From the NCBI RefSeq assembly GCF_009725985.1, contig NZ_RCNR01000013.1:1-64000 (forward strand): a stretch of DNA of 64,000 nt, read 5' to 3'. Each line of letters starts with the position of its first letter. Positions within the stretch are counted from its first letter, which is position 1. Both the position numbers and the translations under genes were made by a program. The notes below the pieces were generated by a model. That model had not been told where the DNA came from, did no database searches, and saw only the letters and a list, made by a program, of their open reading frames with translations. Of this stretch, positions 13,347-26,648 are shown piece by piece. The stretch comes from Zobellia amurskyensis (GTDB taxonomy: Bacteria; Bacteroidota; Bacteroidia; Flavobacteriales; Flavobacteriaceae).

Positions 13347-16052
13347 ATGAGCAGTTCTAAAACAAAATATCTAAAACTATCAGGTCTAGAACCTTTGATA
13401 ATCACCCCTGAAAGCAATTTCGTAAATGTGGGTGAACGTACTAATGTAGCTGGTTCTAAACGTTTTTTGCGTCTTATTAAAGAGCGAAAATTCGAAGAGG
13501 CCTTAGATGTAGCAAGAGATCAGGTTGAGGGGGGTGCACAAATCATCGATATTAATATGGATGATGGTCTGATCGATGGTAAGGAAGCTATGGTCAAGTA
13601 TTTGAATCTTGTCATTGCAGAACCGGATATTGCCAGAGTGCCCATTATGATCGATAGTTCCAAATGGGATATTATTGAAGCAGGTCTCCAAGTGGTTCAG
13701 GGGAAATGCGTTGTAAACTCCATTAGTTTAAAAGAAGGAGAAGAAGAATTTATAAACCATGCCAAATTAGTAAAACGGTATGGTGCAGCGGTTATCGTAA
13801 TGGCTTTTGACGAAGTTGGTCAGGCCGATAATTATGATAGACGAATAGAGATCTCTAAAAGGTCGTATGATATTTTGGTAGACCGAGTTGGTTTTGCGCC
13901 GGAAGACATCATTTTTGATTTAAATATTTTTCCCGTAGCAACGGGTATGGATGAGCATAAGCTTAATGCCATAGATTTTATAAAGGCTACCAAATGGGTG
14001 CGTGAAAATTTACCTCATGCAAGTATTAGTGGCGGGGTAAGTAATGTGTCATTTTCGTTCAGGGGTAACAATCCTGTTCGTGAGGCCATGCACTCTGTGT
14101 TTTTGTACCATGCTATAAAAGCGGGTATGAATATGGGTATTGTTAATCCAACAATGTTGGAGATTTATGATGATATTCCTAAGGATCTCTTAGAACGTGT
14201 AGAAGATGTAATTCTTAACCGTAGGGATGATGCCACAGAAAGACTTCTAGATTTTGCGGAATCCGTTGTGGGTAAGGCCAAGGAAAGTAAAGTAGACCTT
14301 TCATGGCGAGAAGAACCTTTGCAAAACCGAATTACGAGGGCGTTGGTAAAGGGAATAGATCAATATATAGTAGAAGATGTAGAGGAGGCTCGCGTTGCCG
14401 CAGACAAGCCTATTGAGGTTATTGAAGGCAATCTAATGGCCGGTATGAATGTTGTGGGAGACCTTTTTGGAAGTGGGAAAATGTTTTTGCCACAGGTGGT
14501 AAAATCCGCCCGAGTGATGAAAAAGGCAGTTGCTTATCTGTTGCCATATATTGAAGAGGAAAAGTTAAAGAACCCTCAGGAAGGTGATGATAAGGGTAAC
14601 GGTAAAATCCTTATGGCAACTGTAAAAGGTGATGTTCATGATATTGGTAAAAATATAGTGAGTGTTGTATTGGCCTGTAACAATTATGAAATTGTTGATT
14701 TAGGGGTCATGGTGCCACCAGAAAAAATTATAGCGGAAGCCATTGCCCATAATGTAGACGTAATTGGTCTAAGCGGCCTTATTACGCCTTCTTTGGATGA
14801 GATGGTGCATTTGGCAAAGGAAATGGAGCGCAAAAACTTCAAGTTACCTTTGTTAATTGGAGGGGCAACAACTAGTAAGGCTCATACAGCGGTTAAGATA
14901 GATCCGCAGTATAGCGAGGCCGTAGTTCATGTAAACGATGCCTCCAGAGCGGTTACCGTGGTGGGGGATTTATTGCAGAAAGAAACATCGGTAAGTTATA
15001 AAAAAGCCATTAAAGAAGATTATGATGTCTTTAGGGATAAGTTTTTAAGCCGTACCAAAAAGAAAGAATACAAAACTATTGAGGCCGCAAGGGATAACCG
15101 ATTTAAAATTGATTGGGATGCTACTCAAATAGTAAAGCCAAAGCAACTGGGTATTCAGGTTATTGAAGATGTTGATTTGGAGAAATTAGTACCTTTTATA
15201 GATTGGACGCCCTTTTTTAGAAGCTGGGAACTACACGGAAAATACCCGGATATTCTAACGGACGAGGTTGTGGGCGAGCAGGCAACTGAGCTTTTTGCCG
15301 ATGCCCAAAAAATGTTGAATGATATTCTAAAGGGCAAGAAATTAACGGGGAAAGGTATTTTTGGACTCTTCCCGGCAAATACATTGGCCAATCATGATGA
15401 TATTGAAGTAGAGGTAGAAGATGGTCAAGAGGCTAAAAAATATACGTTTAGAACCTTACGTCAGCAATTAAAAAGACGTGAAGGGGTGCCTGATTATGCG
15501 TTGTCCGATTTTATTGCTCCCAAAGAAACGGGAAAAGAAGATTATGTAGGTTGTTTTTGTGTAACCACTGGTTTTGGAACCGATGAATTGGCGGATAAGT
15601 ACCGCGAGAATCTAGACGATTACAACTCCATTTTAGTAAAAGCTTTGAGTGATCGTTTGGCTGAGGCTTTTGCGGAATACTTGCATAAAGAGGTAAGGAT
15701 GGAGCATTGGGGCTATGCTGCTAATGAACATCTTGAAAATGATGAATTAATTGATGAAAAATATAAAGGTATTCGTCCTGCACCAGGCTATCCTGCTTGT
15801 CCTGATCACTTAGAAAAGCTAACGCTATGGGACATGCTTAAAGTAGAGGAGCGAATAGGAGTAAAACTCACGGATAGTTTGGCCATGTGGCCTGCATCAT
15901 CGGTTTCGGGGTATTATTTTGGGAATGAACAAGCTAGATATTTTGGGTTAGGGAAAATAAAAGAAGACCAAGTAGAGGACTTTGCGGAGCGAAAAGGAAT
16001 TCCTCTAGAGAAAGCTACAAAGTGGCTTGCCCCTAATATAGCGGATGATTGA
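13347..16052 (+). CDS. metH: Methionine synthase, folate/B12/activation half (split MetH)
   Basis: A 901-residue protein carrying the remaining MetH modules in order: pterin-binding barrel ([15 protein letters not shown], residues 26-300), the cobalamin cap and Rossmann domain with the B12 lower-ligand His in DVHDIGKN (H431), and the C-terminal SAM-dependent activation domain ([12 protein letters not shown]). It needs the separate homocysteine half encoded upstream. The cofactor is methylcobalamin, the methyl donor is the product of MetF, and SAM reactivates the enzyme. It starts with the base after the stop of the small gene. Confidence 0.95.
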
Positions 16053-16440: not shown

Positions 16441-17394
16441 ATGAAAATAACGGACCACATTAAAAATGCAAAGGATAAAACTTTATTTTCCTTTGAAATT
16501 ATACCACCGGTAAAAGGGCACCAGATTCAGCAACTTTATGATAACATTGATCCTTTAATGGAGTTTAAACCTCCGTTTATTGATGTTACTACTTCGCGAG
16601 AGGAGTATGTGTATATTGATCGAGACGGTCTGTTGGATAAAAAGCTGACACGTATGCGTCCCGGTACGGTTGGTATTTGTGCGTCAATAAAACACAAATA
16701 TAATGTAGATACCGTGCCACATGTACTTTGTGGTGGTTTTACAAGAGAAGAAACCGAGTACCTGTTAGTGGACTGCCATTATTTGGGAATAGATAATATT
16801 ATGGCCTTGCGTGGTGATGCCATGAAGGATGAGAAATATTTTCAGCCAACAAAAGGTGGGCATACCTATGCGGTAGATTTAGTAAAACAAGTTCATGAGT
16901 TGAACTGTGGGAACTACTTGCATGAAACGGTAGATAGTGACAATTGTGCTAATTTCTGTATTGGGGTTGCGGGATATCCAGAGAAGCATTTGGAAGCCCC
17001 TTCTTTACAATCGGACTTAAAAAGACTAAAGGAAAAAGTAGATGCCGGTGCCGATTATGTGGTTACGCAGATGTTTTTTGATAACCAGAAGTATTTTGAG
17101 TTTGTAGAAGCTGCCAAGAAAATGGGCATTACGATCCCTATTATTCCCGGTATTAAACCTATTGCGGTAAAAAGGCATTTGCAATTGCTGCCACAGGTCT
17201 TTAGAATAGATTTGCCACAGGATTTAATTGATGCTGTTGATGATTGTAAGTCGAATAAAGACGTACGCAAAGTAGGTGTGGAATGGGCCATTCAGCAATC
17301 TAAAGAGTTAAAGGCGGCGGGAGTTCCCGTATTGCATTATTACTCAATGGGTAAGTCCGATAATATCAAGGCCATTGCAGAGCAGATTTTTTAG
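16441..17394 (+). CDS. metF: Methylenetetrahydrofolate reductase
   Basis: A 317-residue MetF, a flavin-dependent barrel enzyme that reduces methylene-THF to methyl-THF, the methyl donor for the MetH encoded upstream. Seen are SFEIIPP near the N-terminus (residues 16-22), DVTTSREE, the ALRGD motif and the TQMFFDN motif. Length is typical. It follows metH by about 390 bases, with a small gene and the folded element between, and probably shares the riboswitch-controlled transcript. Confidence 0.95.
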   Translation: MKITDHIKNAKDKTLFSFEIIPPVKGHQIQQLYDNIDPLMEFKPPFIDVTTSREEYVYIDRDGLLDKKLTRMRPGTVGICASIKHKYNVDTVPHVLCGGFTREETEYLLVDCHYLGIDNIMALRGDAMKDEKYFQPTKGGHTYAVDLVKQVHELNCGNYLHETVDSDNCANFCIGVAGYPEKHLEAPSLQSDLKRLKEKVDAGADYVVTQMFFDNQKYFEFVEAAKKMGITIPIIPGIKPIAVKRHLQLLPQVFRIDLPQDLIDAVDDCKSNKDVRKVGVEWAIQQSKELKAAGVPVLHYYSMGKSDNIKAIAEQIF

Positions 17395-20846: not shown

Positions 20847-21314
20847 ATGAAAAATTTAAAATTAGTTGTGTTAACGCTTTGGCTTAGTCTTTTTGCGCTG
20901 ACTATGAATGCTCAGGAAATAACATCTTTCTCAGGAATGTGGGGTCCGGAATTTTATCAAGATAAAGATAAACTCACTTGGAAGGAAATCGATAAGATGA
21001 TGTCCGAAAGTCAAGTTGCTCAGGTGAACTGGGAGAAATCTAAAAAACAAATGTTAGGTGGAATGATTGCCGGAGCGGCCAATTTTGGAACGGCCATTTG
21101 GTTCTTGGTTAATGAAAACGACCATAAACCGGTTACGGGACCTGCAATTGCCTTTGCGGGAACCGGACTAATTGGTTCACTTTTCTTTCACCACGCCATG
21201 AAAAACAAAAAGGAAGCAATCTTGAACTATAATGAAAGTCTGGATAATGGAATGTCGTTCCGTATGGTGCCTGCTGTAAACGAAAATGGAGTAGGACTTG
21301 CTTTGAAATTTTAG
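20847..21314 (+). CDS. Exported hypothetical protein
   Basis: A 155-residue protein with a signal peptide (MKNLKLVVLTLWLSLFALTMNAQ). The mature part has two likely membrane-active stretches, LGGMIAGAANFGTAIWFLV and GPAIAFAGTGLIGSLFF, and a short C-terminal strand with MRMVPAV-like character (FRMVPAVNENGVGLALKF), as in small outer-membrane or lipoprotein-like proteins. No family is recognised. A shared terminator separates it from the convergent gldA. Confidence 0.55.
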   Translation: MKNLKLVVLTLWLSLFALTMNAQEITSFSGMWGPEFYQDKDKLTWKEIDKMMSESQVAQVNWEKSKKQMLGGMIAGAANFGTAIWFLVNENDHKPVTGPAIAFAGTGLIGSLFFHHAMKNKKEAILNYNESLDNGMSFRMVPAVNENGVGLALKF

Positions 21315-21335: not shown

Positions 21336-21371
21336 AATCCGGAATTCAGTTGATGAGTTTCGGATTTTTTA
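21336..21371. terminator. Terminator between convergent genes
   Basis: AATCCGGAA (21336-21344) pairs with TTTCGGATT (21358-21366), with one mismatch. A T-run follows on the plus strand, and an A-rich flank serves the minus strand less well. It ends the small exported-protein gene and may also stop gldA transcription. Confidence 0.65.
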
Positions 21372-22271: not shown

Positions 22272-22527
22272 AATGGGTAAATAAAATGTTAGGTCTTTCT
22301 CTCTTGGTAGGGGCCTTTTAAAGAGAACTTTTCAAAAGTCTGTTTTATTGCTTTATCAAAAGTAAACAATAAAGTATTATCGTATTTTTTATTAAGCGAA
22401 GCTATACCGTAATAATTCAAAAATGGACCACTGCCTGATTGCGAGATACATATAAAATGGAAAAAAATGTGCTCTATCAGTTTATTTTTAAATATAATTA
22501 TTACTTTAGCCGAAGTTTAAGTGTATT

Positions 22528-22599
22528 ATGACAAAGCAATTCTTTTTCAACGGTTTTTATTTTTACTTCTTTTTTAAGAGAGGTACGGGACTGTTGTAA
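22528..22599 (+). CDS. Phe/Tyr-rich leader peptide of the aromatic operon attenuator
   Basis: An ATG opens a 23-codon peptide reading MTKQFFFNGFYFYFFFKRGT then GLL and stop. Ten of its first 16 residues are Phe (8) or Tyr (2), which is not expected by chance. It ends just before a strong terminator and upstream of prephenate dehydratase. The leader codons overlap the arm ACGGGACT (22585-22592), which can replace the 3' arm of the terminator. This is the layout of ribosome-mediated attenuation: stalling at Phe codons when charged tRNA-Phe is scarce lets the antiterminator form. Nothing else is seen in the rest of the 440-base gap. Confidence 0.88.
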   Translation: MTKQFFFNGFYFYFFFKRGTGLL

Positions 22600-22633
22600 A
22601 ATATTGCATGATATAAACAAATTGAAGTCCCGT
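22585..22633 (+). promoter_or_regulatory. Antiterminator of the phe attenuator
   Basis: ACGGGACT at 22585-22592 is identical to the 3' arm of the terminator and fully complementary to AGTCCCGT at 22626-22633. Pairing of these two segments would prevent the terminator. A ribosome finishing at the stop codon (22597-22599) would mask the first arm and favour termination. One stalled at the early Phe codons (22540-22557) would leave it free. Confidence 0.8.
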
Positions 22634-22652
22634 GAAAAACGGGACTTTTTTT
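22625..22652 (+). terminator. Attenuator terminator before pheA
   Basis: AGTCCCGT (22626-22633), loop GAAAA, then ACGGGACT (22639-22646) and seven Ts: a perfect 8-bp stem with a U-run. It lies between the leader peptide and prephenate dehydratase, 60 bases before the gene. Confidence 0.92.
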
Positions 22653-22712
22653 GTTCAATATCTATCGTGAATTATAAGAAATAATGCTTCCTAAGTCGGA
22701 AGAAAGTCAGTT

Positions 22713-23540
22713 ATGAAACTAAAAATAGCCATTCAGGGAATTAAGGGATCTAACCACCACCAAGTGGCTCGAGAGTATTTTGATGATAATGTAGATTTGG
22801 TAGAATGTTTGTCTTTTGATTTTTTGGTGGACCAACTACTGAAGGGAACGGCAGATATTGGAGTGATGGCCATTGAAAACTCAATTGCTGGATCGATCAT
22901 TCCCAACTATGCGCTCGTTTACCATAAAGATTTACATATTGTTGGGGAGCATTACCTGAATATCCACCATAATTTAATGGTGTTGAAAGGGCAAAAAATC
23001 ACGGATATAGAAGAGGTCAGGTCACACCCTATGGCTTTGTTGCAATGCAAGGAGTTTTTTGGGGATTATCCGCATATAAAAATGGTAGAGGATGTGGATA
23101 CTGCGGAAACGGCAAAGCGCATTCAAGAAGGTCAATTAAAGCATATTGCGGCCATAGCTCCAGAGGTTGCAGCCAGTTTATATGATTTGGACATCGTAGC
23201 GGACAACATACAGACCATTCAAAATAATGCAACCCGTTTTATTATTGTAAAGACAAAAAATAAGGTGCTTCCAAAGGAGGAAATCAATAAGGCCTCGGTA
23301 CGCTTTGTAACGGACCACAAACGTGGTAGTCTTGCGGCTGTGCTTAATGTTATGAGTGATTGTAGGTTGAATTTGACAAAAATTCAATCATTGCCCATAA
23401 TAGAGACCCCTTGGAAATATGCCTTTTTTGTAGATGTAACTTTTACTGATTATAACAATTTTGATAAGGCAAAATCACTGTTGAACATCATGGCTGAAGA
23501 CTTTAAGGTGTTGGGTGAATATAAAAATGCTAGAATATGA
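22713..23540 (+). CDS. pheA: Prephenate dehydratase
   Basis: A 275-residue monofunctional prephenate dehydratase that converts prephenate to phenylpyruvate. It has the periplasmic-binding-like catalytic domain (IQGIKGSNHHQVA, GVMAIENSIAGS, NNATRFIIVKT) and a C-terminal ACT domain from about residue 198 (GSLAAVLNVMSDCRLNLTKI) that normally binds Phe for feedback control. No chorismate mutase domain is fused; that activity is in the fourth gene of the operon. Expression is under the attenuator directly upstream. The gene overlaps the next by 4 bases. Confidence 0.95.
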   Translation: MKLKIAIQGIKGSNHHQVAREYFDDNVDLVECLSFDFLVDQLLKGTADIGVMAIENSIAGSIIPNYALVYHKDLHIVGEHYLNIHHNLMVLKGQKITDIEEVRSHPMALLQCKEFFGDYPHIKMVEDVDTAETAKRIQEGQLKHIAAIAPEVAASLYDLDIVADNIQTIQNNATRFIIVKTKNKVLPKEEINKASVRFVTDHKRGSLAAVLNVMSDCRLNLTKIQSLPIIETPWKYAFFVDVTFTDYNNFDKAKSLLNIMAEDFKVLGEYKNARI

Positions 23541-24682
23541 TACGAACAGCGAACCGTTTACATACAGTAGAAGAATATTACTTCTCTAAGAAGTTGAGAG
23601 AGGTGCGTGGTTTGATTGCTGAAGGAAGGCCTATTATCAATATGGGTATCGGTAGTCCGGACTTAGCTCCATCTGAAGCAATTGTCAAAAGTATCCAAAA
23701 TGCCGTTTTGGATGGTGGTGCACATCAATATCAAAGTTATCAAGGTTTGCCCGAGTTAAGGGAGGCCGTGGCTGACTTCTATAGTCTAAAATTTGGGGTA
23801 ACAGCAGATGCATCTACCGAGATTTTACCTTTAATGGGTTCCAAAGAAGGTATTATGCACATAAGTATGGCCTTTTTGAACGAGGGTGACGTAGCTTTGA
23901 TTCCTAATCCAGGTTACCCAACGTATACATCGGTAACCAAATTAGTAGGGGCAGAGGCAAAATATTATAACCTGACTGCGGAAAGCGGATGGTTTCCGGA
24001 TTTGGAAGAGTTACAAGAACATGATTTATCTAAGGTCAAAATCATGTGGACGAGTTACCCGCACATGCCAACAGGAGCAACGGCAACAAAAGCGCAGTTT
24101 GAAAAGTTGGTTGCTTTTGCCAAAAAGAACGATATTCTTTTAGTAAACGATAATCCGTACAGTTTTGTTCTAAATGATTCACCTACCAGCATTCTGGCAA
24201 TTGATGGCGCAAAAGATGTAGCACTGGAACTGAATTCATTGAGTAAGACCTTTAATATGGCCGGATGGCGTGTAGGTATGGTCTTAGGAAGTGCCGAGCA
24301 TATTAATGCTGTATTAAAAGTAAAAAGCAATATGGATTCCGGTATGTTCTACGGAATTCAAAAAGGAGCCATTGAAGCGTTGAAAAGTGGTCAAGAATGG
24401 TTTGATAAATTGAACGAGGTATATAGCTCAAGAAGAGCTTTAATGCATCAATTGGCGGACAAGTTAAATTGTACGTATGATACTAGCGCCGTAGGTATGT
24501 TCTTGTGGGCAAAATTGCCAGAGGGCAGCAAGCCTGCTGAAGAATTTATAGACGAGGTATTGTATGAAAAGAATCTTTTTATTACCCCGGGAACTATTTT
24601 TGGAAGTAATGGCGAGGGTTATATACGTTTCTCATTATGCGTTACGGAAGATAAAATTAAAGAAGCAATTAGTCGGTTTTAG
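23537..24682 (+). CDS. Class I/II aminotransferase, probably aromatic
   Basis: A 381-residue PLP-dependent fold-type I aminotransferase. The PLP lysine is in NSLSKTFNMAGWRVG and the NPG-like loop is NPGYPTYTSV. It resembles LL-diaminopimelate/aspartate-type aminotransferases, but its position between prephenate dehydratase and dehydrogenase argues that it makes Phe and Tyr from their keto acids. It starts within the last codons of pheA (ATGA overlap), so translation is coupled. Confidence 0.9.
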   Translation: MIRTANRLHTVEEYYFSKKLREVRGLIAEGRPIINMGIGSPDLAPSEAIVKSIQNAVLDGGAHQYQSYQGLPELREAVADFYSLKFGVTADASTEILPLMGSKEGIMHISMAFLNEGDVALIPNPGYPTYTSVTKLVGAEAKYYNLTAESGWFPDLEELQEHDLSKVKIMWTSYPHMPTGATATKAQFEKLVAFAKKNDILLVNDNPYSFVLNDSPTSILAIDGAKDVALELNSLSKTFNMAGWRVGMVLGSAEHINAVLKVKSNMDSGMFYGIQKGAIEALKSGQEWFDKLNEVYSSRRALMHQLADKLNCTYDTSAVGMFLWAKLPEGSKPAEEFIDEVLYEKNLFITPGTIFGSNGEGYIRFSLCVTEDKIKEAISRF

Positions 24683-24705: not shown

Positions 24706-25566
24706 ATGAACGTTTTTATAGTTGGTGTTGGGTTAATAGGAGGTTCCTTTGCAAAGGACATCAAACGCCTGCGTCCAGAGAGCAAAATATACGGGATAGA
24801 TACAAGTGCATCTCATTTAAAGGAGGCCTTGGATTTGGGTGTAATCGATTTAGAATCGAGTTATGCAGATTTGGCACTTGCCGATATGGTTATCGTGAGT
24901 ATACCCGTAGATGTTATGATTACGGAGCTTCCGAAAATATTGGACGGTGTAAATGATAATTGTGTAGTTTTTGATGGTGGATCTACAAAAAGTTTGATTT
25001 GTAAAACGCTAGATGCACATCCAAAGCGAAGAAATTATTTAGCGGCACACCCAATTGCGGGTACGGAGCATTCGGGGCCATCGGCAGCAATTGAAAATTT
25101 ATATGCCGGTAAGACCAATATTATCTGTGAGGTAGAGAAAACGGCTTTCAAACTTCAAGAAAGGGCTTTAGAGCTGTTTCAAGAGATAGGAATGAGAATT
25201 CGGTATATGAATCCGGATGCGCATGACAAGCACATTGCATACGTGTCGCATTTGTCACATATCAGCTCTTTTATGTTGGGAAAGACCGTAATCGATAAAG
25301 AGAAGAATGAACGTGATATTTTTGACATGGCGGGCAGTGGTTTTGAGAGCACGGTTAGATTGGCCAAGAGTTCACCGGCCATGTGGACGCCCATTTTTGA
25401 ACAGAATAAAGAGAATGTGGTCGAAACTTTGACCGAATATATACAGAACCTTCAGGAGTTTAAACAACTGTTGGAAAAAGGAGATTACACGGGCATTTTT
25501 AACGAAATGAACGACACTAATAAAATAAAGGAAATTTTAAACGGAATACCACTAAACAAGAAGTAA
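24706..25566 (+). CDS. tyrA: Prephenate dehydrogenase
   Basis: A 286-residue enzyme that oxidises prephenate to 4-hydroxyphenylpyruvate. The NAD-binding start is VGVGLIGGSFAKDI, followed by GGSTKS and AAHPIAGTEHSG with its catalytic-type His, then HISSFML and AGSGFESTVRLA. No fused chorismate mutase or ACT domain is present. It follows the aminotransferase by 23 bases and shares one base with the next gene. Confidence 0.93.
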   Translation: MNVFIVGVGLIGGSFAKDIKRLRPESKIYGIDTSASHLKEALDLGVIDLESSYADLALADMVIVSIPVDVMITELPKILDGVNDNCVVFDGGSTKSLICKTLDAHPKRRNYLAAHPIAGTEHSGPSAAIENLYAGKTNIICEVEKTAFKLQERALELFQEIGMRIRYMNPDAHDKHIAYVSHLSHISSFMLGKTVIDKEKNERDIFDMAGSGFESTVRLAKSSPAMWTPIFEQNKENVVETLTEYIQNLQEFKQLLEKGDYTGIFNEMNDTNKIKEILNGIPLNKK

Positions 25567-26648
25567 TGGAGAATTCAAAAGAAATGAGAACATGGTTGGA
25601 TGATATGGGTTTAGACCATCCACTAGTAATAGCAGGGCCATGTAGTGCTGAAACCGAGGAACAAGTGTTGCGTATTGCTCACGAGTTAAAAGATACCGAT
25701 GTAAATTACTACAGAGCAGGTATCTGGAAACCAAGAACACGTCCTGGTATGTTCGAAGGCGTTGGTGCCATAGGCTTGAATTGGTTAAAAAAGGTAAAGG
25801 AAGAGACAGGTCTAAAAACGGCTACAGAAGTTGCCAATAAAGCCCATGTTGATTTGGCTTTGGAGAATGATGTAGACCTTCTTTGGATAGGTGCACGTTC
25901 TACGGTAAGTCCGTTTATCATGCAAGAAATTGCCGATGCTTTAAAAGGAACGGATAAAATTGTTCTTGTAAAGAACCCTGTAAATCCGGATTTGGCTTTA
26001 TGGTTGGGTGGTATCGAAAGATTGCATACAGCTGGTATCAAGAATTTGGGAGCTATTCACAGAGGTTTCTCTACATATGAGAAAACAAAATACAGAAACA
26101 TTCCAGAATGGCAATTGGCTATTGAATTCCAAAACAAATTTCCAGATTTGCCATTGATCAACGATCCATCGCATATTACAGGGAAGCGCGATATGATTTT
26201 TGATGTTTCGCAAACTGCGCTAGATTTAAACTTTGATGGTTTAATGATCGAAACTCATTTTGATCCTGATAACGCTTGGAGTGATGCTGCTCAGCAGGTA
26301 ACACCAGCAAAATTGGTACAGATCATGAGAGATTTGCGTATCAGAAAAGAAACGGATAGCGAAGCGGAATACAATGCTAAATTGAGCAATCTAAGAGCGC
26401 AGATAGATATTCTTGACAATCAGTTGATAGATACTATGGGCAAGCGTATGAAAGTTTCCGATGGTATTGGTGAGCTTAAAAAGCAGAAGAACGTTGCGGT
26501 ATTACAGTCTAATCGTTGGAACCAGATTTTAGGAGCCATGATTTTAGAAGGTGAAACTCGTGGTTTGAGCGAAGAATTCGTACTTAAAATGTTCAAGGCT
26601 ATTCACCAAGAATCTATCAATCATCAAGAGAAGATTGTAAACGGATAG
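25566..26648 (+). CDS. DAHP synthase / chorismate mutase bifunctional enzyme
   Basis: A 360-residue fusion. Residues 1-260 are a DAHP synthase of the KDO8P-synthase-like class (GPCSAE at 24-29, YYRAGIWKPRTRPGMFEGVG, and DPSHITG), which starts the shikimate pathway. Residues about 265-355 are a type II chorismate mutase (LRAQIDILDNQLIDTMGKRM and on), which makes prephenate for the two enzymes encoded upstream. The fusion links the first and the branch-point reactions, and the mutase domain often acts as the feedback sensor. It is last in the operon, followed by a strong terminator. Confidence 0.94.
   Translation: MENSKEMRTWLDDMGLDHPLVIAGPCSAETEEQVLRIAHELKDTDVNYYRAGIWKPRTRPGMFEGVGAIGLNWLKKVKEETGLKTATEVANKAHVDLALENDVDLLWIGARSTVSPFIMQEIADALKGTDKIVLVKNPVNPDLALWLGGIERLHTAGIKNLGAIHRGFSTYEKTKYRNIPEWQLAIEFQNKFPDLPLINDPSHITGKRDMIFDVSQTALDLNFDGLMIETHFDPDNAWSDAAQQVTPAKLVQIMRDLRIRKETDSEAEYNAKLSNLRAQIDILDNQLIDTMGKRMKVSDGIGELKKQKNVAVLQSNRWNQILGAMILEGETRGLSEEFVLKMFKAIHQESINHQEKIVNG

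Follow-up and report, generated by a model that had tools for sequence, protein, structure and literature searches.

A predicted ribosome-mediated attenuator with a Phe/Tyr-rich leader peptide ahead of the pheA genes of Zobellia amurskyensis and its relatives

The region ahead of pheA in Zobellia amurskyensis is very probably a classical ribosome-mediated transcription attenuator. It would control the genes for pheA, an aminotransferase, tyrA, and a DAHP synthase/chorismate mutase, and would be set by charged tRNA-Phe and tRNA-Tyr, joined in most relatives by tRNA-Trp. The reading is drawn from sequence comparison and RNA folding. In the following, the window is the whole stretch of DNA that was analyzed (64,000 nucleotides). 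Its relevant features are:

22502..22509, + strand: promoter -7-like motif TACTTTAG (Bacteroidota TAnnTTTG type), first base 26 nt 5' of the leader ATG
22528..22599, + strand: leader peptide ORF MTKQFFFNGFYFYFFFKRGTGLL with its stop codon, read directly; non-synonymous/synonymous ratio 0.17 of that expected among 92 leaders
22548..22557, + strand: arm 1 (CAACGGUUUU), pairs with 22587-22596 and shields arm 2 when there is no ribosome (RNA fold)
22585..22592, + strand: arm 2, 5' half of the antiterminator, ACGGGACT; codons 20-22, starting 9 nt past the last Phe codon
22624..22633, + strand: arm 3 (GAAGTCCCGT), 5' arm of the terminator and 3' half of the antiterminator (hairpin, RNA fold)
22639..22652, + strand: arm 4 of the intrinsic terminator (ACGGGACTTT) with the T tract; hairpin of -15.9 kcal/mol
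22713..23540, + strand: pheA, prephenate dehydratase, the first structural gene (PF00800, 194 bits)
23537..24682, + strand: aminotransferase class I/II, overlapping the end of pheA by 4 bases (PF00155, 209 bits)
24706..25566, + strand: tyrA, prephenate dehydrogenase (NF006307, 391 bits; cut-off 295)
25566..26648, + strand: DAHP synthase-chorismate mutase fusion (PF00793, 130 bits; PF01817, 74 bits)

The leader ORF, read directly, starts with ATG at 22528, comprises 23 codons, and ends with TAA at 22597-22599. With eight Phe and two Tyr codons among the 23, it abounds in codons for the amino acids made by the operon. The first-pass annotation had described a leader with these eight Phe and two Tyr, and its sequence agrees with ours to the base; only its addition of a GLL to the peptide did not stand, as the GLL codons are the end of the same ORF and not a separate element. 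Among the leaders of the family set (n = 177), Phe occurs 5.9 times and Tyr 3.4 times on average, and aromatic residues make up a mean of 42% of the peptide. Tyr is present in all 177 and Trp in 117. The Tyr and Trp codons match an operon that serves Tyr synthesis too and opens the common pathway: all three aromatic amino acids depend on the DAHP synthase step, which is encoded last in the pheA gene run. The four genes of this run would be co-transcribed. A relative of the aminotransferase was found in the flank of 131 of 137 loci, and the PheA of the window is 92-94% identical to PheA on Zobellia contigs.

Transcription would start just 5' of the leader. We take TAnnTTTG to be the promoter -7 consensus of the Bacteroidota, and on this basis TACTTTAG is called promoter-like. 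The motif TAnnTT[TA]G lies at most 60 nt 5' of the leader ATG in 163 of the 177 family-set leaders and in 16 of the 26 leaders from a draw across the phylum, compared with 8 of 203 in a control interval lying further upstream.

The core of the terminator is formed by AGTCCCGT at 22626-22633 and ACGGGACT at 22639-22646, both read directly. The full stem has 10 pairs (22624-22633 with 22639-22648), and in the seven-T run at 22646-22652 the first T doubles as the last base of the 3' arm of this core. A terminator with seven Ts ahead of pheA had been proposed, and so had an arm at 22585-22592 as an exact copy of the terminator 3' arm; the former is seen in the sequence, and the latter is correct to the base over all eight positions (22639-22646). 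An intrinsic terminator lies between leader and first structural gene in the relatives as well. When the leader is folded alone (22528-22609), it reaches -21.4 kcal/mol, with 22548-22557 paired to 22587-22596 so that arm 2 is hidden; for leader through terminator, the value is -41.5 (z -6.6). In the window, the pairing of arms 2 and 3 (-13.8 kcal/mol) is weaker than that of arms 3 and 4 (-15.9 kcal/mol, both by RNA fold), so antitermination must be kinetic. The same holds for known attenuators, in which 2:3 is weaker than 3:4 and antitermination is kinetic. Under the criteria of one scan, neither strand of the 64-kb window contains a second arrangement of this kind.

The predicted mechanism is as follows. 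A ribosome would trail RNA polymerase into the leader and translate it. When Phe- or Tyr-tRNA is scarce, as on starvation, the ribosome would stall in codons 5-16, with its leading edge at or before arm 2. Arm 2, thus free, would pair with arm 3, no terminator would form, and the operon would be read. When both tRNAs are plentiful, the ribosome would reach the stop codon and cover arm 2, so that the 3:4 terminator forms and transcription halts. With no ribosome on the leader, arm 1 would hold arm 2, and the terminator would form as well.

Conservation was assessed on pheA upstream regions from the best 80 of 221 matching contigs and from 110 genomes of the same family, including the window's own; 20 more distant same-family matches were then added, and some genomes were sampled twice. 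The family search gave 178 genomes with a match, of which 130 were examined. The loose detector asked for an ATG ORF with Phe/Tyr plus a terminator. The strict detector required an ATG ORF with six or more Phe or Tyr making up 30% or more of it, together with a terminator; arm 2 had to match over 6 bp or more, including four or more G-C pairs. Shuffle controls were run on the stricter forms, while the count of 209 out of 210 given below and the counts for the phylum draw refer to the loose detector.

The loose detector was positive in 188 of the 190 upstream regions of the first set and in 19 of the 20 more distant ones. Both misses that were counted after inspection have the device by eye. 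In one (L183), leader and terminator fall outside the detector limits; in the other (L163), inserted repeats place the leader further upstream (L246). In this family member, the stretch from the attenuator terminator to pheA contains repeated GC-rich hairpins whose flanks are conserved. Leader and terminator thus occur in 209 of 210 family upstream regions, the sole locus without a leader within 600 nt of pheA being L250. Nine more family genomes from the phylum draw were all positive with the loose detector. Among 183 distinct family upstream regions, the strict detector found 164, and the form with ORF and terminator, leaving out arm 2, found 178; neither form was found in any of 915 dinucleotide shuffles. 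These counts are not independent events because the sequences are related.

The peptide itself is under purifying selection. In codons 2-19 of 92 related leaders with 23 codons, the ratio of non-synonymous to synonymous differences is 0.88, compared with 5.11 expected at equal rates, i.e., a ratio of 0.17; the differences are pairwise single-base codon differences, which are not independent, and the expectation is a simple equal-rates one without a rate model.

Arm 2 tracks the arm of the terminator with which it would pair. For a swap test, 203 leaders were kept (19 uncalled and 15 duplicates were dropped), and arms were exchanged only where at least two of seven positions differed between them. 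Pairing with the own arm beats pairing with swapped arms in 184 of the 203 (mean score 9.96 vs 7.04), and arm 2 pairs better with its own arm 3 than shuffled windows do in 201. At least six contiguous pairs between arm 2 and arm 3 are present in 166 leaders, and the best contiguous match is merely 3-4 bp in 12. We found 16 different all-Watson-Crick strings of 6 bp or more, several of them nested in one another, among them CGGGAC:GTCCCG, CGAGAC:GTCTCG, CAGGAC:GTCCTG, CGAGGC:GCCTCG, GCCGGG:CCCGGC, and AGGCGGG:CCCGCCT.

Within tail types, arm 2 is nearly invariant. For tail type A (n = 109), pairing was 0.894 compared with 0.876, and none of the 1000 shuffles within the type reached it, although the margin was small. 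For tail type B (n = 47), pairing with frame-fixed anchors was not above shuffles (284 of 1000 reached it). This frame-anchored count dropped 49 sequences with other tails, 19 uncalled ones, and 13 duplicates, and some terminators were anchored two bases off in it because their outer pair is G-U. As the excess within types is small (A) or non-significant (B), the covariation is mostly between lineages. Type B and the leaders with 3-4 bp matches aside, an alternative antiterminator using the 5' arm of the terminator is maintained. The first-pass annotation had read the locus as attenuation and had named the lack of a conserved peptide, or of compensating changes in the arms, as comparative grounds against it. 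Neither came true. A Phe/Tyr-rich peptide with its terminator is conserved across relatives, the arms covary, mainly between lineages, and the reading holds computationally. Additions to that annotation are the protecting 1:2 stem, the codon ruler (the spacing between aromatic codons and arm 2), the Trp codons of most relatives, and the earlier publication on F. psychrophilum.

The protecting stem between arms 1 and 2 was examined by folding and synonymous codon resampling, in two forms: either the arm-2 codons were varied too, or every codon touching arm 2 was held fixed. In the first form, the leader was more stable than its resampled versions in 156 of 163 family-set cases (mean Z -1.61) and in 21 of 24 of the phylum draw, with a Z of -2.4 for the window. 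With the arm-2 codons fixed, the values were 155 of 163 (mean Z -1.47), 20 of 24, and -1.84, respectively. A protecting 1:2 stem is thus favored even when the codons of arm 2 cannot vary.

The distance between the aromatic codons and arm 2 is also kept. In 178 of 203 leaders, arm 2 begins 9-11 nt past the point where the aromatic codon run ends, compared with 151 of 2030 shuffled windows. In the phylum draw (n = 26), the spacing varies more (from 6 to 18 nt, with 11 of 26 at 9-11 nt), and nine of these 26 sequences, which also enter the swap and composition statistics, belong to the window's own family. In E. coli, the leading edge of the ribosome is found 12 nt downstream of the A-site codon's first base. 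If such a footprint is assumed for the 1839 aromatic codons of 187 distinct peptides, a ribosome stalled at 1689 of them would leave arm 2 wholly free, at 58 it would mask arm 2 partly, and at 92 it would block it; in the window, nine of the ten aromatic codons leave arm 2 free and the tenth covers its first base. With the same footprint, a ribosome at the stop codon covers arm 2 in 162 of 187 leaders, as had been claimed for the window. Hence, given an E. coli-like footprint, arm 2 would be free during a stall at the aromatic codons and covered once a ribosome has reached the stop codon.

Two other operons of this genome have leaders of their own. The hisG gene is preceded by the His leader MKNRTTHHHIHTHAQAR (HHHIHTH) and a terminator (locus L239, minus strand, ~2270-2160), and no Rfam family reached its cut-off at this leader. 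A trpE-like gene, which scores 440.7 bits and thus below the model cut-off of 517.7, is preceded by MNRNNTNTWWWNNSRQIS and a terminator (locus L242, 1310-1440). This leader contains WWW, three consecutive Trp codons, and matches Rfam Bacteroid-trp with 51.8 bits (cut-off 49). For both leaders, the detector found no convincing arm 2, the best having only 2-3 G-C pairs. Of two ilvD matches, one (L240) has no terminator in 1.5 kb upstream, and the other (L241) has a distant terminator only and no leader.

These leaders bear on the alternative that the element chiefly senses a general slow-down of translation, e.g., by growth rate or antibiotics, instead of aromatic aminoacyl-tRNA. Any stall before arm 2 would indeed antiterminate. 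We consider this very improbable in view of the share of aromatic residues in the family-set leaders and of the cognate codons which the other two leaders carry for their own operons.

The leader peptide might also act in trans, besides or instead of attenuation in cis. There is a reported precedent in peTrpL of Sinorhizobium (excerpts of PMC7298713), and conservation extends partly beyond the Phe/Tyr codons into the tail KRGTGLL. This tail, however, encodes arm 2, and its residues vary by lineage (GLL, NEALYV, and others) although the RNA arm persists. Such a pattern fits selection on RNA pairing rather than on the function of the peptide. We regard a role in trans as very improbable.

Still less credible is another sensor, a small molecule or an RNA-binding protein, that works the terminator with no part for the ORF. 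Riboswitches and protein-bound attenuators share the output of a terminator and an alternative pairing, but the ORF is enriched in precisely those amino acids that the operon makes, and conservation sits in it: among 70 related leaders, the mean top-base frequency is 0.87 in the ORF, 0.66 before it, 0.64 in the gap, and 0.45 past the terminator. T-box and other riboswitch families were rejected as candidates, since no Rfam family reached its cut-off at the locus. The only riboswitch in the window to do so is a SAM riboswitch elsewhere (RF00162, 11817-11923, plus strand, 79.5 bits), ahead of the ORFs 13347-16052 and 16441-17394, which we take to be methionine-cycle genes.

We give next to no weight to an ordinary terminator with a Phe-rich ORF as by-product of the T-rich DNA before it, a reading already refuted if the conservation counts stand. 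TTT and TTC codons easily arise in AT-rich DNA, and further terminator-like hairpins lie near the leader. Yet no shuffle gave the arrangement, purifying selection acts on the peptide, and most relatives keep the codon ruler unchanged. The nearest gene upstream, gldA (TIGR03522), points away on the minus strand, and the nearest same-strand gene, which ends at 21314, has its own terminator-like hairpin (21336-21366).

The attenuator was also sought beyond the family. The phylum draw comprised 158 genomes; a PheA match was present in 122 that lie outside the family, and 34 of these were examined. Among all 21 with a PheA match of at least 200 bits, the loose detector was positive in 17, and one more (L218, with a GTG start) is clear by eye. 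In L204 and L205, the apparent end of another gene lies directly 5' of pheA. L225 has a pair of short Phe/Tyr-rich ORFs ahead of pheA, the first at about -315 and the second closer to the gene, possibly a double leader, with no terminator called. The strict detector was positive in 13 of the 34. With PheA matches below 165 bits (13 of 101 examined), a leader was found in none of the 13, two of which (L227 and L228) start inside longer fused frames and are uninformative.

Four of the 18 leader loci (L211, L212, L217, and L224) lie in genomes that do not belong to the class. The strict detector was positive in just one of them, L217, and in L211 and L224 the arm-2 match is no longer than 4 bp. 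L235 and L230, which belong to the same families as L217 and L224 and have a weaker PheA match only, are without a leader. As the leader is present with a strong pheA match and absent with a weaker one, it may travel with the gene, and these loci hint at a possible transfer of gene plus switch outside the class. We see about even chances that this attenuator is ancestral and controls the Bacteroidia-type aromatic operon led by pheA throughout the class, summing Phe, Tyr, and often Trp via one codon run that ends one ribosome half-length before arm 2, and that it moved with the gene into other classes of the phylum.

The trp and his attenuators of Proteobacteria and Actinobacteria follow the same four-arm logic (1:2, 2:3, and 3:4), with cognate codons before arm 2. 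The element of the window differs in lying in another phylum, where initiation led by a Shine-Dalgarno sequence is not the rule. A further close counterpart is the enterobacterial pheL (RF01859, Phe_leader), in which a Phe-rich peptide, a protecting stem, an antiterminator, and a terminator likewise stand before prephenate dehydratase. Phylum, operon, and sequence are different, the family leaders all contain Tyr and mostly Trp, and membership in RF01859 was rejected at 32.8 bits, below the curated cut-off of 55. Bacteroid-trp (RF01692) shares the phylum and the type of mechanism but is a tryptophan leader; it gave no match at 22400-22760 even up to an E value of 10 (curated cut-off 49 bits). 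Excerpts of Weinberg et al. (2010; PMC2864571) include this Bacteroid-trp leader.

For F. psychrophilum, a 2021 paper (PMC9723704) reports, in the parts consulted, strong clues that amino-acid operons are preceded by leader-peptide attenuators. It also describes a structured 5' element ahead of pheA which is found in other Flavobacteriaceae genera and has no Rfam hits. This is very probably the same element as the leader described here. In the main-text parts consulted, the pheA element appears without peptide, arms, or ruler and is not itself called a leader-peptide case. Leader-like short ORFs are mentioned in Bacteroides (excerpts of PMC7366714), and a 2010 article gives leader-peptide systems as shown solely in Proteobacteria and Actinobacteria, as then known (excerpts of PMC2965389). 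In the excerpts of a work on his genes in Bacteroidota, attenuation comes up only in the introduction (PMC8305728); Lopatovskaya et al. (2010) is cited in the excerpted part of PMC4833913. Among the open-licence PMC papers listed, taken without supplements, we found none giving this peptide or its arms and no experimental attenuator case in the phylum. The kind of switch is thus already known and hinted at in one paper, and the novelty is modest. New here are the peptide, the arms, the codon ruler, the class-wide spread, and the four genomes outside the class with a leader.

For the phylum, this is a precise, conserved, and easily tested attenuator, which supplies the arms and the codons to mutate. 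It predicts that this operon, as a supplier of all three pathways, responds jointly to Phe, Tyr, and Trp, and that transcription and translation are closely coupled in the family. If the attenuator is indeed the class-wide control, leading ribosomes keep close to RNA polymerase in a phylum from which Shine-Dalgarno initiation is mostly absent, and the leaders would be natural rulers for the footprint of the flavobacterial ribosome.
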